DNA of 64,000 nt from Homalodisca vitripennis (taxonomy: Eukaryota > Arthropoda > Insecta > Hemiptera > Cicadellidae), in the NCBI RefSeq assembly GCF_021130785.1, contig NW_025778969.1, positions 1-64,000 of the forward strand. The letters run 5' to 3'. A program made the position numbers and the translations under genes. Below, piece after piece: positions 36,922-59,297 of the stretch (its first letter is position 1; every line of letters begins with the position of its first letter). The notes beneath the pieces were generated by a model. It was not told the DNA's origin. It ran no database searches and was given only the letters and a program-made list of their open reading frames with translations.

Positions 36922-37304
36922 TAGTAGAACGGGCGCCACTTTGGCCGTAACATGGGCTCTTATGGAGTTATTCTGGACCAATGAGAAAGCAGCAATGGCG
37001 GCTAGGCCACGCCCCCTGCCCCCCTCCCCTCCCCCCTCCCACACCCCCCGCCCCCTCCTAGACCCCCTGCGACGACCCCCCAGCCAATGGGAGAGCAGCA
37101 AGCCCCCCACCTTACGAGAGCGATGGCGGACGAGCGATGGCGGACGGTGTCATGGCGGATGAACAAAAATTTGTGTCTCCGGCGGCCGGTATCCGAACCC
37201 GGACCCCTACGAATGCGAGACTGTCGCGCTGACCACTGGACCACGGAGACGAGTTGTGCGTGGCGGCGCGATATGGCTGTACGTGCGGCGCGGGGCGCCC
37301 GGCG
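36922..37304. repeat. Polinton left terminal inverted repeat
   Basis: Reverse complement of 55939-56324 over about 383 bp with near identity; differences are mainly in the lengths of the C runs. It contains a C-rich tract (37010-37085) and, on the minus strand, a 76-nt tRNA-like sequence. The inner boundary is sharp at ...cggggcgcccggcg. Confidence 0.95.
37175..37250 (-). ncRNA. tRNA-like sequence inside the left TIR
   Basis: Minus strand: 7-bp perfect end pairing (GTCTCCG with CGGAGAC), an A-box-like TGGTCCAGTGG, a B-box-like GGTTCGGATACC and 76 nt in total; an A run on the plus strand (37165-37169) would give a T5 terminator just downstream. The T-arm has one mismatch and no good anticodon stem forms, so it is tRNA-like and not a certain tRNA. 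It would be transcribed outward from the element. Confidence 0.5.
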
Positions 37305-37308
37305 ATCA

Positions 37309-37792: not shown

Positions 37793-40700
37793 ATGTCGGT
37801 AAATATGCTAGAGCCTGTATATTTAGTAAACACCAGTGAAACGTATGTCAAAAAGTTTAGACTTTACGGTATGAGGACAACGTTTAAATCCAACAGTCCT
37901 CCTGAAGGAATATCTGAACTGGATTGGATTAAGCGGGGGTTCGGAGAAGTTGTAGAGCAAATGAAAGCTAAAGCTTCAGATACAGATTACCTAGGTTTCA
38001 CTTTGAACAGTTTAAATTTCAAGAATAAAGATCCGGGATACGTAGCCTTTAGACCAGCTGATGAAGTTAACCTTGACGTGTTATGGAAAATCTTTGGAGG
38101 TATTGTACAGAGTAACGCTGAATCTGTCACTTCTAGTGATACGTTTCAAGTGTCTTGTACGGTTGTCAATCTGCCCGTAGGTAGAGGTAGAAATAGGCCC
38201 GGTAAATACAATAGCTTCAGCGAAGAGTGCAAAGGACGAAAAGGTATCGTAGTCATTAAGAATAGCGATAATCTGTGTCTGCCCCGAGCTATAGTGGTAG
38301 CAAAAGCCTATGCCAAAAAAGATCCTCAACTTAAAGCAATAAGGCAGGACATGGCTAAGAGACAAACATTTAGAGCACAGAAACTAATGGCAAAGGCAAG
38401 AGTTAATATTTCAGAAGAGGGGGCTGGGTATAGCTGAACTTGAAAAGTTTCAAGACCACTTGAAGAAATATAACATAACAGTATTCAGCTATAATGCAAA
38501 AGGGCGGGACGTATACTTCAGTGGTAACAATACGGAAGCCTCATACAAAATAAACTTGTTGTTTCACAAAGGTCACTTCAACGTGATAACTAATTTGACA
38601 GCAGCTTTCGCTTGCCATTTCTATTGTGAAGCTTGTCATGTGCCGTATGACCACAGAGGTGATCACCGATGTTCTAATGTCTGCTCTGCTTGTAGGCACA
38701 ATCTCACCTCCCTGCAAGCTCGAGCATTCAGGAATAACTTGCCCTGAGTGTAATCGTCACTTTAAAAACCAGCGCTGCTTTGCTGCTCACCAAGGTGATC
38801 TCTGCAAAAAACGTACAGAAGTGTCTCGACTGTGAGAAAAACATATACAAGAAAACATAGAAAAAACACAACATGAATGCGGTGAAGTATATTGTAGCAC
38901 TTGCGCAGAATTTAAACCCGCTAATCATCAATGTTACATGCGCCAAAACAAAGTACCCACTAAGAATGATAACTTTCTGTACATATTCTTTGACCTGGAG
39001 ACTCGTCAGGACGAATGTTTAGAGAACGAGCCTGACATCAAGGTTCACAAAGCTAACTTGTGCGTCTCAGAACAGTTCTGTAGCCAATGTATAAATAATA
39101 ACGAGTTTTGTGAAAACTGCCTCCAACGCAGAAAAATCTTTCAGGAAGACCCAATATCCAGTTTTATGAACTATGTAATGGAAATTCGCAAACCATACAA
39201 AGACGTGTGCGTCATAGCTCATAACGGACAAGGATTCGACTTCCAATTCATCTTGAGATATATTCTGGAAGAGACCAAATTCACACCGGAAGTCATTACT
39301 CGTGGGACAAAAGTAATTTTGCTGGAGTTTGACAACGTACGTTTCATTGACTCTCTCAACTACTTTCCCATGTCACTGTCCGCTCTTCCTAAAGCCTTTG
39401 ATCTTGGTCCCGAAATGAAGAAAGGCTACTTCCCTCATCTGTTCAACACGATCGCAAACCAAAACTACGTGGGACCGATACCAGCAAAAGTATTCTATTG
39501 CCCAGAGTCAATGTTTGAAAAGAACTACAAAGACTTCGAGAAATGGCACAATGAACAGGTATGCAATAACTATGTGTTTGACTTTCAGAAGGAATTGATA
39601 GAATATTGCATCTCTGACGTTGACATACTGGCAAAGGCGTGTATTAAATTTAGATCCCTATTTTTAGCCGAATGCAATGTCGACCCGTTTCTGGAAGCTG
39701 TCACCATAGCTAGCGCATGTAACCTAGCGTTTAGACGTAATTTCTTAAAGCCTGAAACAATCGGAATATTGCCAAAGAAAGGATACAGATTAGTGGACAA
39801 TCATTCTGGCATTTCTTTACAATGGTTGACGTGGGAAGAAGAGCGGCGAGGTGTTAGAATACAGCACGCAGGAAGAGAGCGAGAGGTCAACATTGAGGGA
39901 ATGAAGGTGGATGGATTTGATGGAGACAGAATATATGAATTTCAAGGTTGTTACTATCACGGATGTCCAAAGTGTTTCCCGTACAAAAGAGGTGAACCGT
40001 TGAAAGAAGATCCTTCTGACACCCTCGAACTCAGATACGAGAGGACAAGAGCCAAAATCGAGAAGCTGTCACGTACACCTTATGAGGTGGTAGAGATGTG
40101 GCAGTGTGACTTTAATAAACTAAAATCAGAAAAGGAGCTAACATATTTGGAAAACCATCCCGTGTTGAACACCTTACCGCTCAATCCACGAGACGCATTT
40201 TTCGGAGGAAGAACCGGAAATGCCATGACGTATTACAAGTGTACGGAAGATGAGACAATACAGTATGTGGACGTATGCTCCCTATATCCCTACGTTTGTA
40301 AACACGGTAAATATCCGATATCCCATCCTACCATCTATATTGGTGACAAAGAGTGCAGAGAGAGGGGAATGCAGGTTGAGGGCTTGCTAAAGTGCAAAAT
40401 GCTACCTCCAAAAGATCTTTATCATCCAGTGCTTCCAGCTAGAATGAATGACAAATTAATGTTTGTACTGTGCAATGTCTGTGGCGAAGAGCTCAACAAC
40501 GATGACTGTCAACACAGTGACGAGGGAAAGGGCGTTGATTGGCACATGGACGATGGATGAAGTACGGAAGGCAGTTGAAAAAGGCTATAGAGTTGTTGAA
40601 ATGTACGAGCTGTGGGAGTACAACGTAGCCACTTTCGAAACGGGCGGATTGTTTACAGACTTTATCGACAAATTTCTAAAGATAAAACAAGAGGCGTCAG

Positions 40701-41592
40701 GCTATCCATCATGGTGTCAGACAGACGAAGAAAAGGAAAAATATGTGCAGGATTATTACGACCACGAGGGAGTAAAGCTTGATCCGTCAAAGATAGAGAA
40801 AAACGAAGGCCTCCGCTCTCTAGCAAAGTTAATGCTTAACTCGTTCTGGGGTAAGTTTGGGCAGAGAGAAAACCAGACAAAAACGCTCATCACCAGAGAC
40901 CCTGAGGAACTGTTTAAGCTGTGTATGGATTCTAGCGTTGCCGTAAACAGAATACAGGAAATCAACGATGACGTTGTCCTGGTAAGCTGGCAACATTTAG
41001 AAGAAGTGGGCGAGTCATTAGCCACTGTAAACGTTGTCCTAGCTGCCTACACTACAAGTCAAGCCCGTTTAAAGCTTTATGATCATCTGGAGGCACTGGG
41101 TAAACAAGTATTGTACTACGATACAGACAGTGTTGTGTACGTATACAAAAATGGCTTGTACAGAGTAAATACCGGCGACTACCTAGGGCAGATGACAGAC
41201 GAGCTGGCTAAAGACTACGGTCCCGGATCTCATATTGTAGAATTTGTTTCCGGTGGTCCAAAGACGTATGCTTATCGCGTTTTTTTTTTCCACAAACAAA
41301 AACGATTTTGTATCTGTCTGCAAAATCAAGGGTCTCACTCTTAACCTAAAAAACTTCAAAAAATCTAAATTTTGAAAAACTTAAAGAAATGGTTCTTAGT
41401 GAAACCTGGGTAACACTCGATATTGAAGAAAACAGAATTAGGAGAACAAAGTCCAGGCAAATAGTTACTGTCAAAGAGACAAAGGTTTTCAAAATTACAG
41501 GTCCAAAACGCAGACGCGAAGGTGAGTATGGAACCCTGCCTTATGGTTATTGTAAAATGTCAAAAAACCAGTTAGATGGTACCTTATGCTGA
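37793..41592 (+). pseudogene. Protein-primed DNA polymerase B (pPolB), frameshifted
   Basis: Replicates the linear element by protein priming. The ATG at 37793 begins a 214-codon N-terminal part (IVVIKNSDNLCLPRAIVVA). It continues through Cys/His clusters at 38,600-38,930 (CEACHVPYDHRGDHRC, CPECNRHF) to the exonuclease: FFDLETRQD (Exo I), AHNGQGFDF (Exo II) and YCISDVDIL (Exo III). Polymerase motifs follow: DVCSLYPYV (A), LMLNSFWGKFGQ (B), YYDTDSVVYV (C) and GGPKTYAYRV. The C-terminus ends at 41592 after YGTLPYGY. Frame changes lie near 38417 (G run), 38730, 38810, 38860, 40527, 41280-41289 (T10) and 41365. All catalytic motifs are preserved; the frame is not. Confidence 0.93.
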
Positions 41593-42612
41593 CAATACAG
41601 AATTATGTTAACAAGTAATGAGTCTATTGTCACAGTCGAATTGAGTTTGGAGCGAAAATGAGAAAATAATGAATAAATTTACCTCTGTACTGTATTCCCT
41701 TTAGTCGTACTCCATCCACCATCACCACGACACCGGAAATATTCTGGTTCTTCATCTTCCTCACCCGAATATCCTGATTGCGAATTCCGCAAAAAACTAC
41801 TAATCACTAGCACTGGAGACCACGGATGACGCAGAGGATGATCGTGATAGTGGTATTATTAAAAACGTATCAACGAGAAACGAGTATAGGTGATACGCAC
41901 CAAGAATAATTGGTAGCACTCTGCACGGAGCCGAACTCAGTACTGAGAGCGGGATACGTGGCAGAACGGCGCCTCTACTAGCACATGTGGTCAACACATG
42001 TTGTGACGCACTTCCTGCGCTGTTGTATTCGCGGTTCCAGAGCCGGGGTGACGAGGAGGTTGGTCTAAAACACCGTAGAAACAAACTTTTCCTTCGGTCG
42101 TTACGAGGTGTGACCATGTAAGGTGCGAGGACTCACGCATGTAGATGGGTTGAAACCTTCACTGGACGGGCACCTCTAGCGTCCACCACCCTGTTAAAGC
42201 GCTCGGAAACCCGTGTTTACGTCAGCAGGTGTATAATGATATGAAGTATGCAATAAGGCTAATTTCAGCCACTAATCCGATTTATGCCTCTGCAGACTCT
42301 AGATTATATAAACTCTTTCCACAATCCTACCACCACTACTAAAGGGAATATAGTATCATACTCTCGGTCTTTATCGCTGCTCGAGAGAATACCCTTGTTC
42401 AACGGACAAGGAAGGGAGGTGGGAACTCGTTGTCCCATCACAGCATACAGCGTTGGTTGGGGCTGTATGGGTATTCCCGGTCGGCGTGTTGACAGTCGAT
42501 CAGAGTGTTGACAACCATCGGTAATGCCAGGGGGATAACGGAGGCATGAACTAGCGTCTTTTGGAGCATGCCACGGTCTACAGCGGTGGAGGGGCTGTAG
42601 AATTTAGGGGGT
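41593..42612. other. Gap between polB and integrase
   Basis: Starts with an AATAAA-bearing stretch (gaataaatttacc near 41670) that may end the polB transcript. A minus-strand open frame (41800-42117) and short plus-strand frames have no recognisable motif. A decayed or unknown gene cannot be excluded, because indels are frequent in this element. Confidence 0.5.
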
Positions 42613-42645: not shown

Positions 42646-42651
42646 TGCGTA

Positions 42652-43545: not shown

Positions 43546-43597
43546 GGACTTAATGTTCCGTCCAAGAGAGAGAGAGAGAGCGACTGCTGGTGCAAGC

Positions 43598-43634
43598 TAT
43601 ATTTAAACATAGATATTTACGATGCGCAGTCAGT
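43598..43634 (+). promoter_or_regulatory. TATA-initiator promoter before the ATPase cluster
   Basis: TATATTTAAA at 43598-43607 with GCAGTCAGT starting about 30 bp downstream, a good arthropod initiator. It lies between the integrase stop and the ATPase and could drive the tightly packed morphogenesis cluster. Confidence 0.6.
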
Positions 43635-43699
43635 AACAGCTGGAATGCGTGTCGTGAAGCAGTCTCTGGAGCTACCCGTGTCTAAATTTTGACCGGTAT

Positions 43700-45520: not shown

Positions 45521-45738
45521 AGAGGGTAAGGTTTGACGATAGAGTGGAGGTAAGGCTAGTTTCGCGGTATGACGAGTGCAGATTATTCGATACTTCATCA
45601 TTTTTCGAACAGATGAGGAAATCCTATATAAATAAACAGATAGCAGGCTGTGGGTTCAGTGTCAATCATGACGCGAAACAAGAAGCAGCTTATGACGGAG
45701 ATATCAAAATTAAAGAAAGCTATAAAACAAAAGTATAA
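45517..45738 (+). CDS. Small unknown Polinton protein, 73 aa
   Basis: ATG overlaps the preceding stop by ATGA. The product has KRVRFDDRVEVRLVSRYDEC at its start, a mixed-charge sequence and no recognisable domain or membrane segment. It overlaps the start of the next gene (ATG at 45668) in another frame. Its position inside the packed cluster is the best support that it is real. Confidence 0.55.
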   Translation: MKRVRFDDRVEVRLVSRYDECRLFDTSSFFEQMRKSYINKQIAGCGFSVNHDAKQEAAYDGDIKIKESYKTKV

Positions 45739-46723
45739 TCGGTTTAAGCGGGGTGAATTGGAGTCCGAGGAGATGTTTTGAAAAGCAATACCAGCCGTTG
45801 ATCAAGGAATTGCGTGACACCAAGGAGACCCGCACTTTACACACCGATGTCAAGAAGGAAATCAAGAAAGAGGAAGATGATGCAGATGATGACGATGATG
45901 AAAACTCAGAGTTTCTACCAAATTTATTTTCTTCGCCTAATCTTCCCCATTTAAAACCATCGGTCTCCACTAGACTTGATTCTGGAGCAGAAGAAGTGTT
46001 TGAGACAGACGACCAAGGTGATGGTGGAGGAAACAACGAAATTACAAAAATGCTCTCAACACCTACGGGTCTACAGACGGCGTCCCAATATATCGCCGAC
46101 AGCTTTGCTCATCCGTTGACCAGAAAGTACATGCAAGAGCTTATGAAGGATTTGGGTGGGCGTTCATCTAAAATTGACCATCTTTACGGTCCTCGTTACG
46201 AAAAAAATACTTTAATGGTTGGCAATAAGGAATTGCAGTTTGATGAGGACGGTAGTATTCGAATAGATGATGTGGCGTATAAGCCACAAGAGGGTCTGTA
46301 CGAGTTGATTTTCAAGCGAATACCGGATGATGAAATCTACAATGACGAAGACAAAATCGCTTACAAAGATATACTGAAGGAAAACTAGCGCTCATAAAAG
46401 AAACTATAACCCAAATGGAGTTATCAATCGCAACACGTCGCTCAAGTATAAGTATGTAATTTCAGACTTATTTCCAAAAGTAGTTAAGGGTTCTGGAGCT
46501 GACAGGAAAGCTCATAGTGTGACTAAATCACTATCAGATCCCGATACGGTTTTACTGGAACGATCCAAATGAGTTGTGCGACCGTCTTAGGCTGTTGGTG
46601 GCATCCGCTGAAGCTGGAAACACGAACCACAAGAACGAGATTATAAATATCATTGAAGAATTGAAAGAATCAAAGACTATATCAGGTGATGGTAACGCGA
46701 GATTCAGATCATTGATGAGATGA
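45668..46723 (+). pseudogene. Conserved Polinton structural-type protein with GLYELIF motif, frameshifted
   Basis: The likely start is the ATG at 45668, giving a Lys-rich, coiled-coil-like N-terminus (ISKLKKAIKQKYNRFKRG). After a frame change near 45775 (T run) come KEIKKEEDDADDDDDEN, TPTGLQTASQYIADSF, DHLYGPRYEKN and GLYELIFKRIPDDEIY. After further changes near 46390 and 46546 it continues through NYNPNGVINRN and FYWNDPNELCDRLRLLV to a stop at 46721-46723. I recognise this layout as a recurrent protein of arthropod Polintons with no established function; a virion role is inferred from its place before the fibre-like genes. It overlaps the next ATG by ATGA. Confidence 0.65.
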
Positions 46724-47083
46724 CCGTCAATAAGTTTGGTCAGAGGCCACAATCTCTGAAGAAGCAAGACATCCAGAGAGTTATGAATACTGTAAAACAA
46801 AAAGCTAAAGAAAGATGTAAGAAGATTGTACTCTCAAATTGCAATCCTTCAGAATCAAGCGCTTATTCAGCAGGATCAAATAAACAGCTTACAAAATACA
46901 AATGAAGAAGCTATAAGACGTCTAGCAGTTCAACTATTTCACTGGATCAACAAGATACACACTACCGTACCTCCAGCTCGCTTCCACGCCGTCTTAGATG
47001 CTGATGAAAACACATATATTGACTGGGATAAGATATTTATAAAGAGCAATGTACAGGAGGAGTCTTCATCACTTGTAAAATGA
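46720..47083 (+). pseudogene. Fibre-like paralogue A (short, coiled coil), frameshifted
   Basis: Starts MTVNKFGQRPQSLKK; a frame change near 46820 leads to a coiled-coil stretch (YSQIAILQNQALIQQDQINS) and the C-terminal block QLFHWINKIHTTVP ... YIDWDKIFIKS. That last block is shared with paralogue B, so the two genes arose by duplication. A lacks the GPKG / KRLRN repeat. ATGA overlaps at both ends. Confidence 0.6.
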
Positions 47084-47503
47084 GTGTGGACAAGTTTGGA
47101 CGACGCTTCAAGCGTACAAAGGCTAAACAAGGTCCGAAAGGCGAGGGATTCAATGTGACTGCCGAAGGTGACTATGACGTGCAGAGAAAACGTCTGAGAA
47201 ATCTAGGGAACCCTGAAGATGAACTAGACGCTGTTAATCTACAGACGTTGATCAGTAAGTTAGGAGATCTGCAGACCGAAATGATTACTTTAACCGACAA
47301 GTTAAACAGCTTGAAAGATTCGCAAGAAAATTCTATGAAGCTTTTAGCGGTTTCAATTGTTCCATTGGATCAATAGAGTACACAGTACCGTAGCTGTTGG
47401 TAGGTTTCAAGCACACTTTAACGTTGATGCACATACATATATCGACTGGGATAAGATATTTATAAAGAGTAAAGTTCGTGACTCGCCATCACTTGCACAA
47501 TGA
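47080..47503 (+). pseudogene. Fibre-like paralogue B, frameshifted near its end
   Basis: Starts MSVDKFGRRFKRTKAK, then GPKGEGFNVTAEGDYD and RKRLRNLGNPEDELDAVNLQ, a repeat type typical of trimeric fibre shafts and phage tail fibres (a KRL..V..P...DAV..L pattern), followed by a coiled coil (LQTEMITLTDKLNSLKDS). A frame change near 47365 restores FHWINRVHSTVAVGRF and YIDWDKIFIKSKV, the block shared with A. ATGA overlaps join A, B and C. Proposed role: spike or fibre; this is inference from repeat style. Confidence 0.62.
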
Positions 47504-48255
47504 GTGTTGACAAGTTTTGGACGGCGATCCAGGCAGTTTGGAAAAGGCGGGTTAAGGGACCAAAAGGAGATGGATTCAAGCTGACGGCCGAAGGTGACTA
47601 CGACATTAACGGGAAACGTCTAAGACATGTAAAAAGTCCAGAAGATGATCTCGACGCCGTAAATCTACAAACGCTGACCAGTAAATCGGTGATAATCGGG
47701 AAAGATGGAATTGACTGTCGGAAACAGAGATTGAGCAATATAAGTAAAAGCTACAAGACCATACGATGCTCTACCACTCGCTCAACTGGCCGAACACATA
47801 CCGTCAAAAGATTTAAAGGATAAATCTTACAAGTTCCAGCGCTTTAGATTACATCAAATTGGGGAGCCTAAACAAAACGATGACGCGTTAACACTCGGTT
47901 ACTTCAAAAATAACACTATCAAAAAAAGGCAGGATGGTTGGGAGCTTGGAAACAAAAGGCTAAAGCTAGTGGCCGATCCTGTCGAGCTTCGTGACGCTGT
48001 GACGCTCAACTATTTTCAACGCAAACACAGTTACAAAGAAGCAAGACGGTTGGGAGTTTGCAAACAAAAAAGTTAGGGTTAGTTGCAGACCCTACCGAAA
48101 TGCAGGATGCTGTGACAATGAACTATCTCGTTCGTGTCTTAAGTGAAGTGTTTTACAGTTTCTATATATACGTCTCGCTCCTCCTGGTGATAGTGTTAGA
48201 TCGGTCGCTAAAGACCAGTGGATTCGTTCAAACGTTGTTGATCCGTTTTTCTTAA
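47500..48255 (+). pseudogene. Fibre-like paralogue C with five shaft-type repeats, frameshifted
   Basis: Starts MSVDKFWTAIQAVWKRR, then GPKGDGFKLTAEGDYDINGK. Five successive shaft-like repeats can be read across frames: KRLRHVKSPEDDLDAVNLQ, KQRLSNIS, IGEPKQNDDALTLGYFKNN, NKRLKLVADPVELRDAVTLN and NKKLGLVADPTEMQDAVTMN. A hydrophobic C-terminal stretch (FYSFYIYVSLLLVIVL) follows and would be unusual for a fibre tip; it may instead reflect one more frame change. Changes lie near 47742 and 48035. Confidence 0.6.
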
Positions 48256-48292
48256 ACGCCCAAAACGAAAATAATGAGATCGGAAGACTAAT

Positions 48293-48328
48293 TATATAAA
48301 CTGTGATTGCAAGCCATACACTGCAGTC
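48293..48328 (+). promoter_or_regulatory. TATA-initiator promoter before the PLA2 gene
   Basis: TATATAAA at 48293-48300 with CTGCAGTCTGG about 30 bp downstream (A at 48325), placed between fibre-like gene C and the ATG at 48354. Confidence 0.55.
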
Positions 48329-48353
48329 TGGTTTTGGCCACGGCGCGGATAAA

Positions 48354-48906
48354 ATGGCAAAGCGCAAAGGGTCTCGTCCCGTCAGACGAAAGCGAACCAT
48401 CGGAGGAGCAGGAGGTATTATCTCTAGTGTTATTAACAAGGCGATTGACCTTCTACCTTTTGAAGCACACATCCCTGGCTATTCTTTCTGCGGACCTGGC
48501 ACATTTTTGAAAAAAAGAATCGCTAGGGGTGAGAAGGGGGTGAATTTATTGGATGATGCCTGCCGTATTCACGATATAGCTTACGATAAATACAGTGACT
48601 CGGAGCATCGCAATCAAGCAGACAAAGAGTTGGCAAAGCGGGCTTGGGATAGAGTATAAAAGCGGTCAGACGCGACTTTAGGTGAAAGAGCAGCTGCTTT
48701 AGCGGTAAACTGGTGCGATGAAAGCTAAAACGGCTTTCGGTGGTGGTGGTGGTGGGAAGAGACGAAGGAAAGTTGTTAAGAAGAAGAGCGGAAAGACGAA
48801 AGGTAGGGGCCTTTACCTAAAACCTTATCCAAAGAGGGGAGCTGGTGTTAGAAAGAAGAAGAGGAGTTGTTGTAAAAAAAATCTCGATCCCGATAAGGAC
48901 CGTTGA
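48354..48906 (+). pseudogene. Parvovirus-type phospholipase A2 with basic Gly/Lys/Arg tail, frameshifted
   Basis: I choose the ATG at 48354 (MAKRKGSRPVRRKR), since it is 29 bp past the initiator. The PLA2 core has the calcium-loop YSFCGPGT and the catalytic DDACRIHDIAYDKY, the signature of parvovirus VP1-type sPLA2 used to cross endosomal membranes. After NQADKELAKRAWDRV the frame is lost near 48655; an alternative frame gives ERAAALAVNWC and then a tail of Gly6, many Lys/Arg, and RGLYLKPYPKRGAGVRKKKR, resembling basic core or membrane-active virion peptides. TATAAAAG at 48655-48662 may be chance or an internal promoter. Confidence 0.8.
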
Positions 48907-49327
48907 CAAATTTCGAGTTGATCCACTACGCTAAACAACTAAGCATTCCCAATTTTAGAGGGGTGTTTTATGCGTGACACGTTTACCTCAAACAGGGCCC
49001 AGAAAATACGAGTCAGCTATAGTTAATCTGGACTCAAGTTACGGTGACGGTACTCATTGGGTTTGCTACAGAAAACGCCGGCATAATGTAAGCTATTTTG
49101 ACAGTTTCGGAAATCTTCGCCCTCCTTGGGAACTCATATACTATTTCGGACCCACCGCTGACATACAGTATAATTATCAAAGTCGTCAGGGGTTTGATTC
49201 AGTTGTATGTGGACATCTGTGCTTAGAGTTTCTCAGCGGAAAGAATGTTTTGCCTGAGCGGGAAAGGTTCAAGAATAACTTTGTGACGTATTTCCTCCAT
49301 ACGACACCAGTGATGGCGATTACGTAA
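48903..49327 (+). pseudogene. Adenain-like cysteine protease (virion maturation)
   Basis: Catalytic landmarks in order: GDGTHWVCYRK (His), VSYFDSFGNLRPPWEL (Asp) and DSVVCGHLCLEFL (nucleophile Cys), typical of the C5/Ulp1-like proteases of adenoviruses and Polintons. The upstream frame starts TNFELIHYAKQLSIPNFRGV directly at the preceding stop; the position where an ATGA overlap would be expected reads TTGA (48903-48906). A frame change near 48972 separates this N-terminus from the intact catalytic part (48974-49327). Role: cleavage of virion precursors. Confidence 0.88.
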
Positions 49328-49945
49328 TTGGGATTGATAGATCTGAGCACGTTCAATTCTATTCCCAATATTGAAAAGAATGTAAACGATAAATTTTATT
49401 ACGGAAACCATGATGAAGTGATAACGTTTGAGGAAGGTTCTTACGAAGTAGAAGACATTGCGAATTATATACAGGGGAGACTACCGGAGGGGATCACAGT
49501 CCGCTTGAATGCAAATAACAATACTCTTAAGACCGAGATTAAAAGCAACGTGCAGATTGATTTCAGCAAGAAAGGCACAATTGCATCGATATTGGGCTTC
49601 AGCAAAAAGGTGCTGCAAGCTAATAAAGTACACACTTCAGACCTGCCTGTGAATATTCTCAAGGTGAACAGCATAAGAGTTGAGTGCAACGTTGTTCGCG
49701 GCTCGTTTGATAACGGTGTAGAGAGTCACGTTATTCACGAGTTCTTTCCACAAGTAGAGCCGGGGTATAAAATAGTCGAGACACCTGGTACAGTGATTTA
49801 TTTACCGCTCAAAAACGTTCAGAAGGTGCACACCATAACTGTCGAGCTTAAAGATCAAGACAACAATCCTGTGAATCTCAGAGGTGAAACGTTATCTTTG
49901 AGGTTGCATATAAAGAAAGTGGGTGCTCATGGGTCTAGTATTTAA
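49328..49945 (+). CDS. Penton-type minor capsid protein (single jelly roll)
   Basis: An intact frame of about 205 codons with GLIDLSTFNSIPNIEK at the N-terminus, EEGSYEVEDIANYIQGRL, NANNNTLKTEI, GSFDNGVESHVIHEFFP and GYKIVETPGTVIYLPL, all landmarks of the Polinton penton. It would form the vertices with the hexon. The frame opens with TTG directly before GLIDL where ATG is expected; no in-frame ATG lies nearby, so the start may be mutated or an indel hides it. GGTATAAAATAG at 49765-49775 lies inside codons of a conserved segment and is probably not a promoter. Confidence 0.88.
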   Translation: MGLIDLSTFNSIPNIEKNVNDKFYYGNHDEVITFEEGSYEVEDIANYIQGRLPEGITVRLNANNNTLKTEIKSNVQIDFSKKGTIASILGFSKKVLQANKVHTSDLPVNILKVNSIRVECNVVRGSFDNGVESHVIHEFFPQVEPGYKIVETPGTVIYLPLKNVQKVHTITVELKDQDNNPVNLRGETLSLRLHIKKVGAHGSSI

Positions 49946-50090
49946 GGAGGGTGTGAACATAATTCAGGTCATTAGACCGTCGCGCCTGATAGTGGTAACT
50001 TCTGCTAACGCAAATTTCTTGCGCTCTCTTGGCTTTAAAGTTAACACCGGCGCAATTCGTGAAAATGCTCGATATAGAGAGTCCCGCTGA
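49929..50090 (+). CDS. Small basic ORF bridging penton and hexon, 53 aa
   Basis: ATG at 49929 lies inside the last codons of the penton gene; the frame runs through NIIQVIRPSRLIVV and NANFLRSLGFKV to a stop at 50088-50090, inside the hexon start. It fills the whole 120-bp gap between the capsid genes. The product is basic and amphipathic. Its placement is suggestive of a small virion protein, but it has no recognisable domain and could be chance. Confidence 0.42.
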   Translation: MGLVFKEGVNIIQVIRPSRLIVVTSANANFLRSLGFKVNTGAIRENARYRESR

Positions 50091-51265
50091 GTACAATGAA
50101 ATCATTACCGGACTGGAATATCACACACATAATCCGTATGCTTCAACCACGTTTAATAATAACGATGAAATACGGATACCAATCAGTTATCAGGATTTAA
50201 TAACAGCTCCTTTTGAAAGCACACTACACGTTGTGGGTACAGTAAGCGGTAAGAAAGCTGACGGTACAACAGATGCTAAAGTGTCTCTGGTTAACAACGC
50301 GATCGCTTTTTCTCTTTGATGATATCCGATACGAGATTGGCGGTGTGGAAATTGATCGCACAAAAGAATGTAGGTATAGCCAGTTCGTTAAAAAATATAT
50401 ATTATCAGCTCGTGCGGAAGACGAAAATAATCTGGAAAATGCATGCTGGTTCGGCCCCGGTGGAAAGAAAGAAATGAACAAATTCTCATTTTCTGTGCCT
50501 TTAAGGTTGTTGTTGGGATTCGCAGAGGATTACAAGCGAATAATTGTGAATGTAAAACAAGAGTTGATACTGCTGCGGTCGGCGACAGATGCCAACGCTA
50601 TTATTAGCGATGACGCAGCGACCCACACGTTGAAGATCACCAATCTGTACTGGCGGGTGCCTCACATCTCTGTATCCGACTTGTTTCGTGCTAAAATCCT
50701 ACGTCTAGTTGAAAAAGATACTCCAATACATATACCGTTTAGATCGTGGGAGTTGCACGAATACCCTGTACTGCCGCAAACTGAACGTCAATCATGGACT
50801 ATAAAAACTTCTTCTCAATTGGAGAAACCACGATACGTGATTGTAGCTTTCCAGACAGAAAGGAAAAACAACTTAAAGAAAGACATGTCATGTTTTGACA
50901 GTTGTAAGTTATCGAACATCCGCCTGTATTTAAATACACAATATTTCCCTTATGACAACATTCACGGAGACACCGCTATATTCTATGAAATGTTTGTAAG
51001 ATTTCAAAACTCCTATTATGGCGATTTAGGCGGTCGTCGGTGGCCTGACGTCAGTCTGGACACGTTTAAAAATAAAACACCTCTGTATGTGATTGATTGT
51101 TCACGCCAAAATGATTCGGTCAAGTCTGGACCTGTCGATGTGCGGCTAGAATTTGAGGCTACGGAAGCGTTCAAGGCCAACACACCACAGGCCTACTGTC
51201 TACTGCTTCATGACTCGTATTTCGTTTACACAATGCTCAAGGGCACGGTAAAGAAGATGATGTAA
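50065..51265 (+). pseudogene. Hexon-type major capsid protein (double jelly roll), one frameshift
   Basis: I choose the ATG at 50065, which puts the conserved ITGLEYHTHNPYASTTFNNN close to the N-terminus as in other Polinton major capsid proteins. A T-run indel at 50308-50312 changes frame, after which 320 codons are open: FLFDDIRYEIGGVEIDRT, ACWFGPGGKKEMNKFSF, VPLRLLLGFAEDYKRI, YWRVPHISVSDLFRAK and a C-terminal FVYTMLKGTVKKM. One base is all that separates it from an intact gene. Role: trimer building the icosahedral shell. Confidence 0.9.
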
Positions 51266-51280
51266 CGTGAATAAAACACG

Positions 51281-51595
51281 ATGCAAATGACAGAATCTTT
51301 CAGTTTCAAATTGGACGCCACGATGGAAGGTTCACGGAAGATAAATATTGTCCTTGATTTGGTCGGTGAAATCCGTAGATTAATCCGCAATCACCAGTTA
51401 ACAACAATGAAACGGACGAGTGATGGCTACATGCATTATTGCGAATGTGCGTATACCGCACCGGATTGTCAAGATGTACCAGACACTTGTGTATGTGTAA
51501 TGATTGACAGGCGGAAAGATGAAATATTCAGACTGTTAAATGAAATTTACGATAACACTGTGCAAAACGACGACGACGATGTTCATAGAAGATGA
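51281..51595 (+). CDS. Unknown Polinton protein, 104 aa, acidic tail
   Basis: ATG 16 bp after the hexon stop; an AATAAA (51270-51275) lies between them. The sequence has ITRL-like helical stretches (VLDLVGEIRRLIRNHQ), seven Cys residues between 60 and 92 (YCECAYTAPDCQDVPDTCVC), which may bind metal, and ends NDDDDVHRR. No family recognised. Confidence 0.6.
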   Translation: MQMTESFSFKLDATMEGSRKINIVLDLVGEIRRLIRNHQLTTMKRTSDGYMHYCECAYTAPDCQDVPDTCVCVMIDRRKDEIFRLLNEIYDNTVQNDDDDVHRR

Positions 51596-51674
51596 TAGTG
51601 ACTATACGATATCCTCTATGGAAGAAGGGGAGGAGGAGGAGGAGGAGGAGGTATGTAATTGTATAAGCCAGTGA
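51579..51674 (+). CDS. Micro-ORF with poly-Glu, 31 aa
   Basis: ATG at 51579 overlaps the end of the previous gene by 17 bp; the product is MFIEDDSDYTISSMEEG followed by seven Glu and VCNCISQ. A good donor-like gtatgt (51651) interrupts the Glu run. It may be a short acidic gene, a first exon, or nothing. Confidence 0.3.
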   Translation: MFIEDDSDYTISSMEEGEEEEEEEVCNCISQ

Positions 51675-51730
51675 CTAATACGTCAGGTACTTAATGGTTT
51701 GCTCAAGGTTGTACAGAGTCATTCGTGATC

Positions 51731-51922
51731 ATGGAGCGAAAGAGTGAAGACATACTGGCTACAGTCGCTGATGCTGTGTTCAAGGAGGAGGAGGAGGACC
51801 AGCTGGTGAGTCAACCAATGGAAATAGACAAGGTTAAATCAGTCCGTAAAAGCTCAAAACGAAATCTCCCGAATCTAGTTACCGGTGTGTTTCTAAAGTC
51901 TCTTTACTTTTTGAATTCCTGA
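51731..51922 (+). CDS. Unknown small ORF, 63 aa
   Basis: Starts MERKSEDILATVADAVFK, then KEEEEDQLVSQPMEIDK and a basic KSVRKSSKRN segment. The mix of acidic and basic stretches resembles small core-associated proteins, but no family is recognised. It may continue in another frame. Confidence 0.4.
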   Translation: MERKSEDILATVADAVFKEEEEDQLVSQPMEIDKVKSVRKSSKRNLPNLVTGVFLKSLYFLNS

Positions 51923-52044
51923 TTGTTCCAAATACTTGATTGTAGGGATTGTTTGTTGATCACGACAATGGTTGTTCGGTATCTTGATGAAAGGTAAAAG
52001 GGGAACGTTTGCGTTTTGGAAACCTGAAATGTTCAACATTCTAT

Positions 52045-52290
52045 TAGGGTGCGCGAACCAAATCACCGGACTCTTGGAATCGACAGGCGTGCATAGATTC
52101 AGTAGTTCTAAAAGCGAAAGTGGAGAGAATATGGTGGTTACGTAGAGTATTTGGTCAGCAGTACGTTGTACTGTACGACGGAAAGAATACATTAACTCTG
52201 TCCGTAGACGAGTGGGACTCAGTTCACCAACTGTCTGCCCTGCGTAACACGTCAAATCAACGAGTTGTTTTTAAACGGAGGATCTATTGA
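52045..52290 (+). pseudogene. Fragment resembling a PC4-like ssDNA-binding protein
   Basis: An open frame without ATG ends at 52288-52290 and contains YVVLYDGKNTLTLSVDEWD followed by SVHQLSALRN. The pattern of two beta strands, then TLSVDEW and a helix, recalls PC4-type single-strand DNA binding domains. The match is short and the call is tentative. Confidence 0.3.
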
Positions 52291-52443
52291 GATCTTTACG
52301 TCGGTGATGTGTTAGCATTGCCTAACAACGGAAGTCCGGACGAGGGTTACGTTGATCCGCCTGAGGCTTTACCACGTCACCTTTGCGACAGACTTTTTGA
52401 TGACGTCCAGTGCTACAAAACGTTTGGCCACATTCCAGCGGCG

Positions 52444-52915
52444 ATGAATGTGGCAGTAGTTGAATTTCAAGCTTTTCAAGGTAACAAAAAACCGTTTATA
52501 ATCAAAGAGTTTGCCATTGTGGCTAATTCATTTTCAATGTCAAATTGTTTTCAAACCTCCGTTTCCTAGGGAGAGATTAAACAAGAAAATGCGTACAACA
52601 GCTCTGTGGTTAGAGAAGAACTACCACAAGATCTTGTGGGAAGAAGGCGATTTCCCTTACAGTGGAAGTGTCATTCGCAACCTGTGCAAGCCGTTTACCA
52701 TAATTTATACACGTGGTCATGAGAAAGCGAAATTTTTAAGACGGTTTCACTCTAACGTTTGTGAGCTAGACAACCTGGCATGTTATGACAGTAGTACATT
52801 ATGCAGTTGTAAAGGAACGCATCGGTTTTTTCCTGCTCCCTACCGCAACACAGCGGCCGTGATGAAGATGTACGGTGTGCAATGCACGCTGCTAGATGTC
52901 GTTTTGAAATCCTGA
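52444..52915 (+). pseudogene. Conserved arthropod Polinton-associated protein, frameshifted
   Basis: ATG at 52444 gives MNVAVVEFQAFQGNKKPFI, IKEFAIVANSF; after a frame change near 52535 it continues QIVFKPPFPRERLNKK, WLEKNYHKILWEEGDFPY, IYTRGHEKAKFLRRF and a Cys-containing C-terminus. I recall similar uncharacterised proteins in arthropod genomes; the acidic residue in the first strand and the overall order hint at an RNase H-like or DEDD exonuclease fold (inference). AATAAA overlaps the stop (52915-52920). Confidence 0.5.
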
Positions 52916-52986
52916 ATAAACAGACTCACCAGTCCACTTAGTAGTCATTCTGTTCACGGTCACTGTTGAGATTACATCGTGTCAGC

Positions 52987-53404
52987 ATGGCGAGTACAGC
53001 TGCTGCTGCTACCGCTGCTGTATGGGACCTCATTTCTCGAGAGCCCAAAGTGCCTGTCGGTGTGCTCACTGATGCGTTCATTTTGGAAATTTAGTCGCTT
53101 TCTGAATTGGAAGCTTTTATCGGCAAATTATACTTTTTCGTTTGACATGTTGAGAATATTTCAGCATAAAGTAATTTGGACCACGATTTTGGAAAATGCT
53201 CGCCTTCCTGAATTCATTTTACGTGAAATGATGCCGAACTTTGACACTTACTGTTGGATAGTAATAAGTCGTCACCAGGTTCTATCGGAGCAGTTTATAC
53301 ACGATTTTGCTGAACAGCTGGACTGGGATTACATACTATTGTACCAAAACCTTAGTGGAAAGTTTCTTCAGGACCATTGTAATTATTATAGTGATGAAGC
53401 GTAA
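52987..53404 (+). pseudogene. WxxIS-repeat protein, frameshifted
   Basis: ATG at 52987 gives MASTAAAATAAVWDLISREP; frame is lost near 53092. Further on come VIWTTILENARLPEFIL, CWIVISRHQVLSEQFIHDF and LDWDYILLYQNLSGKFL. These are degenerate copies of a Trp-x-x-Ile-Ser ... Leu-Ser-x-x-Phe-Ile repeat that I know from proteins of large DNA viruses and phages; function is unknown. It is the last coding-like segment before the hairpin cluster. Confidence 0.5.
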
Positions 53405-53437
53405 TGTGTTCCGTAGAAAAACTCCAGTTTTACGATA

Positions 53438-53709
53438 GACCACATTGAAAGGCTTCACCGAGTAAAGTGGTCAACATCCGATTCTCTGCTTGTGTTTCAC
53501 GAGTCACATTGAAAGGCCTCTCTGAGTAAAGTGACTTGTAGGAATCTTGCTGAGAATCGGATCTCGCTCATCCTCTGTAAGTTACAACGAGTCACATTGA
53601 AAGGCTTCTCCAAGTAAAGTGGCTTGTATGAAAACCGACTGAGAGATGCTTCAGCTTCACCTGGATGAGGCAAGTCATATTGAAAGGCTTCACCAAGTAA
53701 AGTGACTTG
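53438..53709 (+). repeat. Hairpin family 1: four copies with a constant 23-nt loop
   Basis: Stems pair at 53438-53443/53467-53472 (GACCAC/GTGGTC), 53500-53507/53531-53538 (CGAGTCAC/GTGACTTG), 53588-53595/53619-53626 (CGAGTCAC/GTGGCTTG) and 53671-53678/53702-53709 (CAAGTCAT/GTGACTTG). Every loop is exactly 23 nt, starting ATTGAAAGGC and ending AGTAAA. Stem changes are compensated or give G-U pairs. Hairpin 2 is enclosed by an 11-bp stem (53476-53486 with 53552-53562) and hairpin 3 by a 7-bp stem (53567-53573 with 53663-53669). The pattern points to a structured RNA. Confidence 0.85.
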
Positions 53710-53769
53710 TCGCGTCCACCTAGTAGTATAATGTAGATTAGTACAAAAATGTCCTTCTCGGAAGGAGGA

Positions 53770-54128
53770 GGAGGAGTTCGGCATTGAGTTGAGAACTACT
53801 CCTGGAAAAAATGTCTTTGCGAGAGCTAAGGAGTTTGGCATTAAGTTGAAAACTTCAAAGCTCACGTGGGGCAGAAAAAAACACTTGCAAAATATAAAAG
53901 TTTTTTGCGAGTACTTGACAGTGAGACGGAAAGGTTCGGCATTTAGTTGAGAACTTTAACGGACTCGCTAAACGGTCTCGCAAGGACACAAAAAAAAAGT
54001 TTACTTTTTCGGAGGTGGCAAATTTGTTATGGAGTGGCCATCACGACAGAGTGGGCGATGGTTGGGGCCCACTCGCAAAGAGAGGTGACACGGAGAGGTT
54101 CGGCATTGAGTTGAGAACTTGAACGTGT
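53770..54128 (+). repeat. Hairpin family 2: four copies with a constant 13-nt loop
   Basis: Inner stems: 53775-53779/53793-53797 (AGTTC/GAACT), 53832-53836/53850-53854 (AGTTT/AAACT), 53930-53936/53950-53956 (AAGGTTC/GAACTTT) and 54096-54101/54115-54120 (AGGTTC/GAACTT). Loops are GGCATTNAGTTGA in all four. Each has a different outer stem: GGAG/CTCC, GAGCT/AGCTC, GCGAGT/ACTCGC and ACACG/CGTGT. Constant loops on changing but paired stems imply selection on RNA structure. Confidence 0.85.
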
Positions 54129-54326
54129 TCAGTGTTCTTTGTTAAGTGAGATTAGGCCTCCTGGGGAAACTCACTATAATAAAAAACGCGCCGAGACCCC
54201 TACGGCCTGGCTCAAAGCCTACCGTGGTGATGGAAACGTGGGTCAACTACGCTGCATTCCTGTCTATATTCAGCTTGGCAGTTTGCCACGACCACAGCCG
54301 CGACTACCTCCACTTTCATTCCAAGG

Positions 54327-54573
54327 TATATATACTACCTGTGGCGAGCTGATCGTCACAGTCACTCTTCGTCTACGTGTCGACGCTCTCATTACAGGTA
54401 AGTGACTACACTACACATTTAACTGTTTTCTTTAAGATATTCGACTGCGCTCTCTATTTGCGGTGTGTTGCTCACGCATAGTTATTCTCAATCCGCTAGC
54501 CAAGTTAACAGTTTTACGATGAACTCGTTGTTAAGATTATTCGCTATACAGATTGTCGGTTTTTCCTTTACAG
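54327..54573 (+). promoter_or_regulatory. TATA box, initiator and 5' UTR intron of the last conserved gene
   Basis: TATATATA at 54327-54334, CACAGTC initiator about 31-33 bp downstream (near 54358-54360), splice donor ACAG|GTAAGT with intron start 54398, and a pyrimidine-rich acceptor ending TTTACAG at 54573. This leaves a 176-bp intron and an ATG nine bases into the second exon. Confidence 0.65.
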
Positions 54574-54581
54574 ATTGAAAA

Positions 54582-54903
54582 ATGGAACTTTCTACAAAGC
54601 TTTCGTCCCTGGAGAAGCATGGTGAACCCACACCAAAGATGGCGATAAAAGAGTTGACACGGAAAGCTGGCTTACAGGATCCTGGAGGCAAAGAAGGTGG
54701 ACACTAAATTTGACCGGAAGGCAGTGATGTTACTCGTAGAAGTGGACAGCACCAAAACAGCCGTCACATTTCTACCGGTGAGATTTGAAAAGACTTTAGA
54801 TGACAGTGATCTACAAGAAATGACGTCGTCTAAAAGGTATAAAGTTAGATGTACGGGTGTTAACGGACTTTTGGTAGATGTTAAGATTTGGAAATGTATG
54901 TAA
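54582..54903 (+). pseudogene. Conserved small Polinton protein (LPxR type), frameshifted
   Basis: ATG at 54582 gives MELSTKLSSLEKHGEP and a helical start; after a frame change near 54668 comes YRILEAKKVDTKFDRK, AVMLLVEVDSTKTAVTFLPV and RFEKTLDDSDLQEM, ending VKIWKCM. This beta-rich layout with an F-L-P-x-R-F core recurs in arthropod Polinton proteins; an OB-fold or ssDNA-binding role is possible but unproven. AATAAA at 54917-54922. Confidence 0.5.
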
Positions 54904-55101
54904 TCAGAACGCTTTTAATAAACGTTAGTACGGACGTAAACACGTGTGTTATTTCTGCAACGACCCCGCCTCCCGGCTATTTTTAGATAGTGCATCTATG
55001 CAGGAGATGTACCGTCACATGTGGTGACCACATGCAGTTGCTGGTGTTCATAATTGTGGGTCTTTCTCACTCAGTACTGTGTTCGCGCCGACTCGGTTAA
55101 G

Positions 55102-55377
55102 ATGATATCAGTAATTATTGCTGCTTATTCTTTGTATTTACGTGTTATTGACCTGTTGTCGACTCCATCACCACCACCGTGTCCCCTTTCGAGATCGTCC
55201 TCATTCATCTCTTCAACAGTCTCCTGGGGTAGTGTTAGTAGCGGTTGGGAGTTTTTTTGGGACTCAGAATCAGAAGAATCCGAGAGTGGATATTCAACAC
55301 TAGAAGAAGAAGAAGAAGACGACGAATTCGATTTGCGTGGTGGTGGTGGTGGCTGGAACGGCTGGAGAGAGTACTAG
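55102..55377 (+). CDS. Unknown Polinton ORF, 91 aa, Ser/Pro-rich with acidic tail
   Basis: ATG at 55102. Hydrophobic N-terminus (ISVIIAAYSLYLRVIDLL) that could be a signal or membrane segment, a Ser/Pro stretch, then SESEESESGYSTLEEEEEDD and Gly5. A donor-like gtgagt follows near 55397. No family recognised; low-complexity composition weakens the case. Confidence 0.4.
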   Translation: MISVIIAAYSLYLRVIDLLSTPSPPPCPLSRSSSFISSTVSWGSVSSGWEFFWDSESEESESGYSTLEEEEEDDEFDLRGGGGGWNGWREY

Positions 55378-55739
55378 GCTACTAGACTTCCAAAAAGGGT
55401 GAGTTATTTTTATTGTTGTCTCCGGTTATCATTAACAGATCACTACATTTCACTGTGATAATGTTTCCGTCTCTAGTTCACCAAATACCAATAGCTGAAG
55501 ATTCCGACTCTAGCTGGTTTTAGATTTTTTTTTACAATAACCGTACGGTAAAGTACCATATTCACCTTCACGCTTGCGTTTTGGGTCAGTAATTGACAGA
55601 GTAAGGCGTAGAGATGGTCTGGTACACACATGTGCAGTTGTAGTCATTGGAATGCACAGCTGTATCCGCTCTGTCACCATGTGCTGTAATGAGATTATGC
55701 TCGCCTACACGAGAGAGAGCAGTCATCGCTCTTAAAGGT

Positions 55740-55823
55740 ATGCCAAACCGAGTGGTCTAAGCGCTCGTCTTACGTTCCGCCGGGACCAGGGTTTCAAATC
55801 CTGGGCGGCTTGGTATACTTTTT
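55740..55823 (+). ncRNA. tRNA-like pol III unit just inside the right TIR
   Basis: Ends pair over 7 bp with one G-U (ATGCCAA with TTGGTAT, 55740-55746 and 55810-55816). A-box-like ACCGAGTGGTCTAAG resembles tRNA-Leu/Ser; B-box-like GGTTTCAAATCC has one extra T; T-stem CCAGG/CCTGG is perfect; a T5 terminator follows at 55819-55823. The anticodon arm is not canonical. No counterpart exists at the left end, so it is unique to this side. Confidence 0.5.
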
Positions 55824-55938
55824 GCGTCCTCACTTGTCGCTACCAGAATGTTGTAAGCCGTGTGTTGTGTTGCCGTCTCTACCAGATAGCAGCACCGCAG
55901 TCGCAAAGCTAAGAAAACTACAGCTGATCGCCGATAAA

Positions 55939-56324
55939 CGCCGGGCGCCCCGCGCCGCACGTACAGCCATATCGCGCCGCCACGCACAACTCGTCTCCGT
56001 GGTCCAGTGGTCAGCGCGACAGTCTCGCATTCGTAGGGGTCCGGGTTCGGATACCGGCCGCCGGAGACACAAATTTTTGTTCATCCGCCATGACACCGTC
56101 CGCCATCGCTCGTCCGCCATCGCTCTCGTAAGGTGGGGGGCTTGCTGCTCTCCCATTGGCTGGGGGGTCGTCGCAGGGGGTCTAGGAGGGGGCGGGGGGT
56201 GTGGGAGGGGGGGGGAGGGGAGGGGGGCAGGGGGCGTGGCCTAGCCGCCATTGCTGCTTTCTCATTGGTCCAGAATAACTCCATAAGAGCCCATGTTACG
56301 GCCAAAGTGGCGCCCGTTCTACTA
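55939..56324. repeat. Polinton right terminal inverted repeat
   Basis: Reverse complement of 36922-37304. The G-rich strand (56,137-56,240) is nearly continuous G runs. The outer end is GTTCTACTA; the next base differs from the left flank. Confidence 0.95.
55993..56068 (+). ncRNA. tRNA-like sequence inside the right TIR
   Basis: Mirror copy of 37175-37250: 76 nt, perfect 7-bp end pairing, A and B box-like motifs, and a T5 run at 56074-56078. Transcription would run outward into flanking DNA, as for the left copy. Confidence 0.5.
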
Positions 56325-58400: not shown

Positions 58401-58406
58401 ACTCGC

Positions 58407-59297
58407 ACAGTCTTAATTAAACGATGGCGTATATTACCGTGTAACCGCAATCAGTTTTGTTTTAGCGCAATTGTGTAAACTCACACGAGTCGTTCACAAT
58501 TACATCTGTAATCCTCGCACAGTCCTTAATTAAACGATGGCGTACATTACCGTGTAACCGCAATCAGTTTTGTTTTAGCGCAATTGTGTAAACTCACACG
58601 AGTCGTTCACAATTACATTGTAATCTCGCACAGTCTTAATTAAACGATGGCCTACATTTACCGGTGTAACCGCAATCAGTTTTGTTTTAGCGCAATTGTG
58701 TAAACTCACACGAGTCGTTTCACAATTACATTGTAATCTCGCACAGTCTTAATTAAACGATGGCCTACATTACCGTGTAACCGCAATCAGTTTTGTTTTA
58801 GCGCAATTGTGTAAACTCACACGAGGTCGTTCACAATTACAATTGTTAATCTCGCACAGTCTTAATTAAACGATGGCCTACATTACCGTGTATACCGCAA
58901 TCAGTTTTTGTTTTAGCCCAATTGTGTAAAACTCACACGAGTCGTTCACAATTACATTGTAATCTCGCACAGTCTTAATTAAACGATGGCCTACATTACC
59001 GTGTAACCGCAATCAGTTTTGTTTTAGGCCCAATTGTGTAAACTCACACGAGTCGTTCACAATTACATTGTAATCTCGCACAGTCTTAATTAAACGATGG
59101 CCTACATTACCGTGTAACCGCAATCAGTTTTGTTTTTAGCCCTAATTGTGTAAACTCACACGAGTCGTTCACAATTACATTGTAATATCGCACAGTCTTA
59201 ATTAAACGATGGCCTACATTACCGTGTAACCGCAATCAGTTTTGTTTTAGCCCAATTGTGTAAACTCACACGAGTCGTTCACAATTTACATTGTAAA
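58407..59297. repeat. 111-113 bp satellite, eight copies
   Basis: The block cttaattaaacgatggc recurs near 58413, 58525, 58634, 58747, 58861, 58974, 59086 and 59199. Copies are almost identical in base substitutions but differ by many single-base insertions (for example cattaccgtg against catttaccggtg, and gtgtaaac against gtgtaaaac), mostly in homopolymers. Confidence 0.95.

Follow-up and report, generated by a model that had tools for sequence, protein, structure and literature searches.

Constant loops on changing, matched stems: a modular array behind the rightward genes of a Polinton/Maverick-like element of Homalodisca vitripennis

Introduction

The VA RNAs of adenovirus are structured RNAs of a linear DNA virus and are transcribed by Pol III, and retroviral CTE and RTE elements carry repeated internal loops. 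Among the large ornate RNAs, GOLLD and ROOL have been linked to phages. These two and OLE are described as large, multi-module bacterial RNAs with covariation support (PMC12286853). In the linear virus-like elements of yeast, stem-loops shortly behind the stop codons shape mRNA 3' ends that lack poly(A); no motif is reported to be common to their transcripts, which typically carry between one and four weak stem-loops and a U-tract (PMC6211774). Polintons have been placed near the root of several groups of eukaryotic DNA viruses (PMC6431247). None of the matches listed in a search of the open-access full-text literature described structured RNA in Polinton/Maverick elements. To our knowledge, the transcription of Polinton genes, its ending and its regulation have hardly been studied.

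The locus reported here lies in a window of 64,000 nt, the whole stretch of DNA analysed (contig NW_025778969.1, positions 1 to 64,000, of the Homalodisca vitripennis assembly GCF_021130785.1). Its host shares with Polinton/Maverick elements the terminal inverted repeats, PolB, A32-like ATPase and DJR capsid protein, and it carries an ORF that by eye looks integrase-like. As in yeast, stem-loops follow shortly behind a stop codon in a linear virus-like element, but here the modules number about a dozen and keep their loops, and by eye the window sequence shows no T-run of the yeast terminator type after F5, the last module. Like GOLLD, ROOL and OLE, the array would be a large multi-module RNA with covariation support; unlike those bacterial RNAs, it has no Rfam match. 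No Rfam family reached the gathering threshold in the window; at E<=1 the array gave one chance-level match (PVT1_3, 14.1 bits of 45), and L005, L020 and L019, other copies of the array, gave none. With the VA RNAs the array would share being structured RNA of a linear DNA virus, whereas one pattern search of the plus strand placed no B-box-like word within it.

Results

The host element

The array is carried by a 19.4-kb element at 36922-56324 of the window, partly decayed in this copy. Its main features are as follows.

36922..37304, plus strand: left terminal inverted repeat, terminal bases AGTAGAACG
38938..41344, plus strand: family B DNA polymerase (PolB) in two frames (PF03175, E 1.7e-34 and 1.6e-14)
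50273..51265, plus strand: double-jelly-roll (DJR) capsid-like protein (PF21738, E 6e-97)
52979..53404, plus strand: upstream ORF of 141 aa with a PHROG 3532 match of unknown function
55939..56324, minus strand: right terminal inverted repeat, ending in CGTTCTACT, an inverted copy of the left repeat

The terminal inverted repeats are 386 bp long, 99.2% identical and bounded by the AG...CT ends that mark a Polinton (AGTAGAACG...CGTTCTACT). The element also encodes an A32-like packaging ATPase (PF04665, E 1e-6) and a PLA2-like domain. A capsid relative occurs in Macrosteles quadrilineatus. Because inverted ends, PolB, an A32-like ATPase and a DJR capsid protein are present, the host is a Polinton/Maverick-like element. 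With the AG/CT ends as borders, a 6-bp target-site duplication was not found at the window copy (AACCTT on the left, ATTAGT on the right). The flanks (window 36923 and 56323) bear the inverted word TCAGTAC/GTACTGA. An ORF with its ATG at 42652 resembles by eye the N-terminal part of an rve integrase; it has no Pfam and no PDB match, and copies elsewhere in the genome retain open frames of 315 aa. The named genes of the element run rightward, and the last ORF of this rightward block has its stop codon 33 nt before the array.

Layout of the array

The array occupies 53438-54244 and comprises twelve units of six kinds (four F1, four F2, and F7, F6, F4 and F5) in the order F1 F1 F1 F1 F2 F2 F2 F7 F6 F2 F4 F5, which is that of the window's lineage, W.

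53438..53472, plus strand: F1 unit 1, internal loop UUGAAAGG/GAGUAAA
53476..53562, plus strand: F1 unit 2, by core match and fold
53569..53648, plus strand: F1 unit 3, by core match and fold
53662..53718, plus strand: F1 unit 4, by core match and fold
53769..53803, plus strand: F2 unit 1, GGCATTGAGTTGA, the weakest unit, with 10 pairs
53812..53873, plus strand: F2 unit 2, GGCATTAAGTTGA
53900..53989, plus strand: F2 unit 3, GGCATTTAGTTGA
54010..54045, plus strand: F7 hairpin, CGGAG-stem-AAATTTGTTATGGAGT-stem-CACG, with two-sided changes across lineages
54049..54074, plus strand: F6 hairpin, GAGTGGGC[GATGGTTGGG]GCCCACTC, its stem different but matched in lineages X, A, B and D
54075..54142, plus strand: F2 unit 4, GGCATTGAGTTGA
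54145..54175, plus strand: F4 hairpin, AGGCCTNCTGGGGA loop
54195..54244, plus strand: F5 element, GACCC...GGGTC
54327..54333, plus strand: TATA-like box of the next rightward gene, 82 nt past the end of the F5 match

By eye, A-rich linkers separate the modules. The preliminary description had reported two families giving eight structured units in 700 bp near the right end. Those units are real, but the count exceeds eight, F7, F6, F4 and F5 completing the array; the right end in question is that of the Polinton-like element, not of the window; and the kinds of module number seven, not two, with family 1 probably representing an internal-loop motif rather than a hairpin loop. A coding role on either strand was rejected: in the other copies of the window's lineage with matches, stops or shifts interrupt the longest open stretch, which has 152 aa and lies on the minus strand.

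The F1 (family-1) cores, at 53441, 53505, 53593 and 53676, are exact and unique within the window. The F2 word GGCATTNAGTTGA occurs exactly at 53780, 53837, 53938 and 54102 on the plus strand; at up to two mismatches the 64-kb window holds 17 matches against 6.65 expected, and all but those four have at least one mismatch. Mean identity among the four F2 copies is 0.94 in the loop, 0.76 in the adjoining 6 bases and 0.29 further out. The F1 units have a core identity of 0.89, and over F1 and F2 the six adjoining bases range from 0.74 to 0.76 and the outer arms from 0.28 to 0.29, near the value for unrelated DNA. The four constant loops described earlier on their named stems are thus present at 53769-54142, and each copy does have an outer stem of its own. 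In the window and in lineage X, the stretch described as a 13-nt loop is predicted to fold further, into an internal loop GG/A, then CA/UG, then a loop of 6 nt, UUNAGU; the fold differs in lineages A and B.

The 2.30-Gb genome contains 577+577 copies of the F2 loop word and 56+48 of the reversed-word control, and the recurrence of the F2 word is therefore not due to chance. The isolated F2-word loci, which have no array, fit the number that the control leads one to expect by chance (L003, L007, L008, L026, L027, L061-L063, L065-L070, L072-L075, and L006 and L059, each with one extra weak F7 match); the F2-word loci examined leave out several listed matches with C at the open position. Beyond this genome, the F1 and F2 patterns tried gave no exact match in IMG/VR, where no capsid relatives were found either, and the F1 core was not found in GTDB genomes. 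The word AGGCCTNCTGGGGAA had 32 single matches in viral contigs of IMG/VR, six of them also with one loose F6/F7 pattern, and these were taken as chance.

The same modules in other element lineages

Comparison of diverged copies yields seven kinds of module in total. The modules recur in lineages X, A, B and D of the Homalodisca vitripennis genome, and in part in the decayed lineage C, with some of their order preserved and on stems that differ yet are complementary. The preliminary description had staked its reading on conservation of the loop in relatives, and the loops are indeed kept in these diverged lineages. F3, the seventh kind, is found in X, A and D and in a single copy of B. The order is F2 F1 F3 F3 F3 F1 F7 F6 F1 F4 F5 in X, F3 F3 F3 F1 F2 F7 F6 F4 in A, F2 F1 (F2 in one) F7 F6 F4 in B, with F3 F3 F3 in front in L004, and (F3) F3 F3 F1 F7 F6 F4 (F5) in D; the pattern used to score F5 was narrow, and inspection by eye reveals this module in A and B too. 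Lineage C retains four F2 (two with a mismatch), F5 and, at looser settings, an F4-like word. Judged by these module orders, W, X, A, B and D share an unchanged 3' half, F7-F6-F4-F5, and differ by shuffling of the 5' half. F2 itself is present four times in the window, once in X and A, once or twice in B and not at all in D. The preliminary description had asked whether the unit count changes between copies; it does so between lineages but is nearly fixed within one.

Within the window's lineage the full set is present in 22 of 26 fetched loci, L013, L015, L116 and L124 lacking one or more matches. Ordered modules were found in 79 of the 112 genome loci examined, a figure that is not a rate, the loci having been chosen by matching and some overlapping. 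The F3 units lie between the complementary words CTAGRGCGRGG and CCTCGCTCTAG, both of which are present in X, A and the D copy L138, and CCTCGCTCTAG stands alone in L076 and L136. The palindrome AGGCCT is found in the F3 and F4 loops. F6 shows the matched stem changes most clearly: one ten-base loop, variable at a single place, is carried by four stem pairs, GAGTGGGC/GCCCACTC, TGTACAGC/GCTGTACA, GTGATGAGC/GCTCATCAC and GTAAAGAGC/GCTCTTTAC, and the F6 word GCGNTGGTTGGGGC occurs 377+385 times in the genome against 1+2 for its reversed control.

The surroundings of the array were also compared. In W, X, B (L020) and D (L076), at most about 60 nt separate the first module core from the end of an open plus-strand frame of at least 140 codons; in lineage A the distance from the end of the nearest open frame to the first module is about 300 nt. 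TATA-like words come after the array in X, A, B and D as well as in the window. AATAAA lies at most 60 nt past F4 in the window, L119, L019, L112 and L113 and does not in L005, L114, L001, L060, L020, L004 (at its array F4), L076, L136 and L138; by lineage, it is present in the window, in a sub-lineage close to W (L119, L121 and L126, counted as one because they are nearly identical), in C and in one X copy, and absent from two other X loci, A, B and D. With so patchy a distribution no common poly(A) site is evident, and a poly(A) site after F4 is possible in some lineages.

Stem pairing

Stem pairing was assessed by swapping arms between units in F1, F2, F4, F6 and F7, with permutations that ignore the relatedness of lineages. 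Own arms gave -19.2 kcal/mol against -12.9 for swapped arms in F1 (10 units; 0 of 20000 permutations as good), -15.7 against -10.6 in F2 (12 units; 4/20000), -21.2 against -12.6 in F6 (5 units; 327/20000), -12.5 against -7.7 in F4 (5 units; 165/20000) and -15.0 against -12.0 in F7 (5 units; 1016/20000). Ranked singly, the own arm came first among possible partners in just 20 of the 37 units (F2 5/12, F1 5/10, F6 4/5, F4 3/5, F7 3/5). An alignment of the F7-F6-F4-F5 half in six rows (W, X, A, B, D and D2, with C left out) contains 31 aligned predicted pairs, 15 changed on both sides and four on one side, and 11 of its 186 cells are unpaired; the RNAalifold covariation term of this half, which has gaps in F4-F5, is slightly unfavourable (+3.3).

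Between W and the sub-lineage, at 91% identity, substitutions were half as frequent at paired sites (26/430) as at unpaired ones (49/416; p 0.0036). No pair changed on both sides over this distance, and 13 of 214 pairs were broken, 11 of them other than A.C; the distal stem of F1 unit 2 accounts for seven of those 11.

Against 40 shuffles per lineage and strand, plus-strand fold z-scores are -6.3 for W, -4.0 for X, -5.9 for A, -5.3 for B, 0.0 for C and -2.3 for D; on the minus strand they are -4.2, -3.1, -3.5, -2.2, +0.9 and -2.5, so that D has no strand asymmetry. In stems located by Watson-Crick pairs only, G.T mismatches outnumber A.C by 57 to 11 over all 37 units; without lineage C the ratio is 53 to 8, and swapping arms between lineages gives 220 to 76 (p 0.027). 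Counted by hand, Watson-Crick pairs of W became G.U nine times and A.C twice in the sub-lineage (one-sided p 0.033), a count that includes a small hairpin at 53639-53654, which is not a module, and stands at 7:1 without it. Because G.U exceeds A.C in the stems, there is a weak sign that plus-strand RNA would be the working form, both tests being weak (p about 0.03 each).

F1 as an internal loop

From its sequence, F1 reads best as an internal loop: a stem, A.A, UU/AA, GAA facing AGUA, A.G, GG/CC and a short loop, in which AGUA/GAA is the sarcin-ricin signature. AGUA faces GAA between helices in the F1 of W, X, A and D; lineage B keeps AGUA, with the flanking AA changed to UA. The strands are found in swapped order, AGUAAA before and UUGAA after an F2 hairpin, in lineage X, at the first F2 of B and at two of the F2 units of C; W, A and D lack this arrangement. 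F1 thus resembles the sarcin-ricin (loop E, bulged-G) motif in holding GAA opposite AGUA, flanked by UU/AA, and in having its two strands in either order, which fits a true internal-loop motif, since such a motif can do so. It differs in being repeated up to four times in a viral element, where it is a candidate motif by sequence. A sarcin-ricin query of the open-access full-text literature found no paper.

A second structured region before the integrase-like gene

The F7-F6 pair of the array has counterparts upstream in the element:

42414..42469, plus strand: first pair, an F7-like hairpin at 42414-42442 (helix 42418-42439) and F6 at 42444-42469
42539..42601, plus strand: second pair, F7-like at 42539-42576 and F6-like at 42577-42601

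The F6 hairpin at 42444-42469 reads CATACAGC[GTTGGTTGGG]GCTGTATG and the F6-like one at 42577-42601 TCTACAGC[GGTGGAGGG]GCTGTAGA; the likeness of the 42414-42442 hairpin to F7 was judged by eye. From the end of the second pair it is 15 nt to TATAAAAG at 42617 and 50 nt to the integrase-like ATG at 42652. In other copies of the window's lineage, too, an F6 word lies about 11.59 kb upstream of the array F6. F7-F6 therefore precedes two different TATA-like words. Another TATA-like box, at 42305, stands ahead of the second structured region, which could therefore as well be a 5' leader.

Discussion

Altogether, loops that stay constant on stems that change in matched pairs suggest a structured RNA. 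Our leading reading, to which we give about an even chance, is that the array is a conserved modular structure of plus-strand RNA, lying in the 3' part of rightward transcripts and acting in cis. A position between the end of a gene block and the following promoter points to transcript tails, and we infer that it is transcribed with the genes ahead of it. Such constancy of the recognition parts on drifting, mutually unrelated stems would be expected if the loop or internal loop were what a partner reads, with the helix serving only to present it; each module would thus offer a fixed recognition part, be it an apical loop or a non-canonical internal loop, on a helix free to drift as long as it stays paired. 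As the 3' UTR or tail of rightward transcripts, upstream of the following promoter, the array would act in cis on 3'-end formation, stability, export or translation, perhaps by binding several copies of one or a few loop-reading factors. The mutually unrelated outer stems would stop near-identical units from pairing with their neighbours. As to what binds, it seems sensible to infer a protein or RNA that reads the F2 loop, as the preliminary description had done.

More tentatively, the array might represent a new class of viral RNA, a modular 'bead-string' of at least seven interchangeable modules with fixed loops and orthogonal stems. The modules would have been shuffled as the lineages of an animal Polintovirus diverged, and a dedicated factor, encoded by the element or the host, would read them and so control the ends of each viral transcription unit; we regard this as possible but doubtful. 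A conserved structure at the ends of gene blocks would in any case offer a handle, the loops serving as bait for a partner and the stems having testable pairing. Constant loops on stems that differ between neighbours also suggest how arrays of near-identical binding sites avoid misfolding, which may be useful for engineered hairpin arrays.

The large size, the many modules, the A-rich linkers and the kept 3' half beside a shuffled 5' half would also suit a separate noncoding RNA, a large ornate RNA acting in trans as a scaffold, a packaging RNA or a decoy for a host RNA sensor or Dicer, and the palindromic AGGCCT of the F3 and F4 loops could permit loop-loop contacts. We consider such an RNA unlikely: no promoter of its own was seen, the only B-box-like words that one regular expression, with both tRNA-like words included literally, picked out on the plus strand of the element (at 55790 and 56044) lying beyond the array, and the array begins within about 60 nt of the end of an open plus-strand frame in W, X, B (L020) and D (L076), though not in A.

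That the modules act as DNA, through cruciforms or folds on single strands displaced in protein-primed replication and read by a DNA-binding protein near promoters, seems quite unlikely to us. Polinton replication by PolB would yield single-stranded DNA, and both structured regions of the window precede a TATA-like word, as the arrays of X, A, B and D do; the bias of the plus strand towards G.U over A.C and its better fold z-scores in W, X, A and B argue for RNA instead, each modestly, and the latter not in D. By analogy with the repeated internal loops of retroviral CTE/RTE, the internal-loop modules behind the last gene of the rightward block might be a nuclear export or stability element of intronless viral mRNAs, a reading we hold improbable, as no Rfam family reached its gathering score and nothing beyond chance appeared at E<=1. 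A relic or tandem duplication without function, its likeness due to shared descent of repeats, is largely excluded: the elements are repeats, some copies are decayed and some frames contain stop codons, but cores that stay constant while outer arms are unrelated yet complementary are unlike neutral duplication, and paired sites change less than unpaired ones.

Other observations on the element and the window

Each terminal inverted repeat contains a tRNA-Glu-like stretch (window 55996-56065, inverted copy 37178-37247) with a box B-like GGTTCGGATACC, a 7-bp acceptor-like stem and a T-run behind it; ARAGORN reports it at a relaxed threshold only, and the Rfam tRNA model gave no match to it at E<=1. 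A second tRNA-like stretch, again at the relaxed ARAGORN threshold only, lies inside the right end of the element at 55728-55815 (GGTATGCC...GGTTTCAAATCCTGGGC...), within the strongly folding 55600-55900. At default settings no tRNA or tmRNA was found in the window.

Several lineages, W and X among them, seem to have been active recently. Forty scored array copies of lineage X, from 773 candidates, are 99-100% identical, and 67 of 150 scored integrase-like starts are identical to that of the window (the window counted), many of them in 315-aa open frames. The lineage B arrays L021, L022 and L023 (C1:136107501, C1:234357001 and C2:40429801) form head-on inverted pairs a few kb apart, as if from inverted-dimer or fold-back versions of the element.

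In the rest of the window, a 30-bp repeat array at 10226-10538 has a unit that resembles the F2 word with one or two mismatches, which was taken as chance. A tandem repeat with a period of about 112 bp lies at 58402-59296, a non-LTR-type retrotransposon with endonuclease and RVT_1 at 3803-6507 (plus strand), and a large Helitron with Helitron_like_N and PIF1 at 20907-26519 (minus strand).
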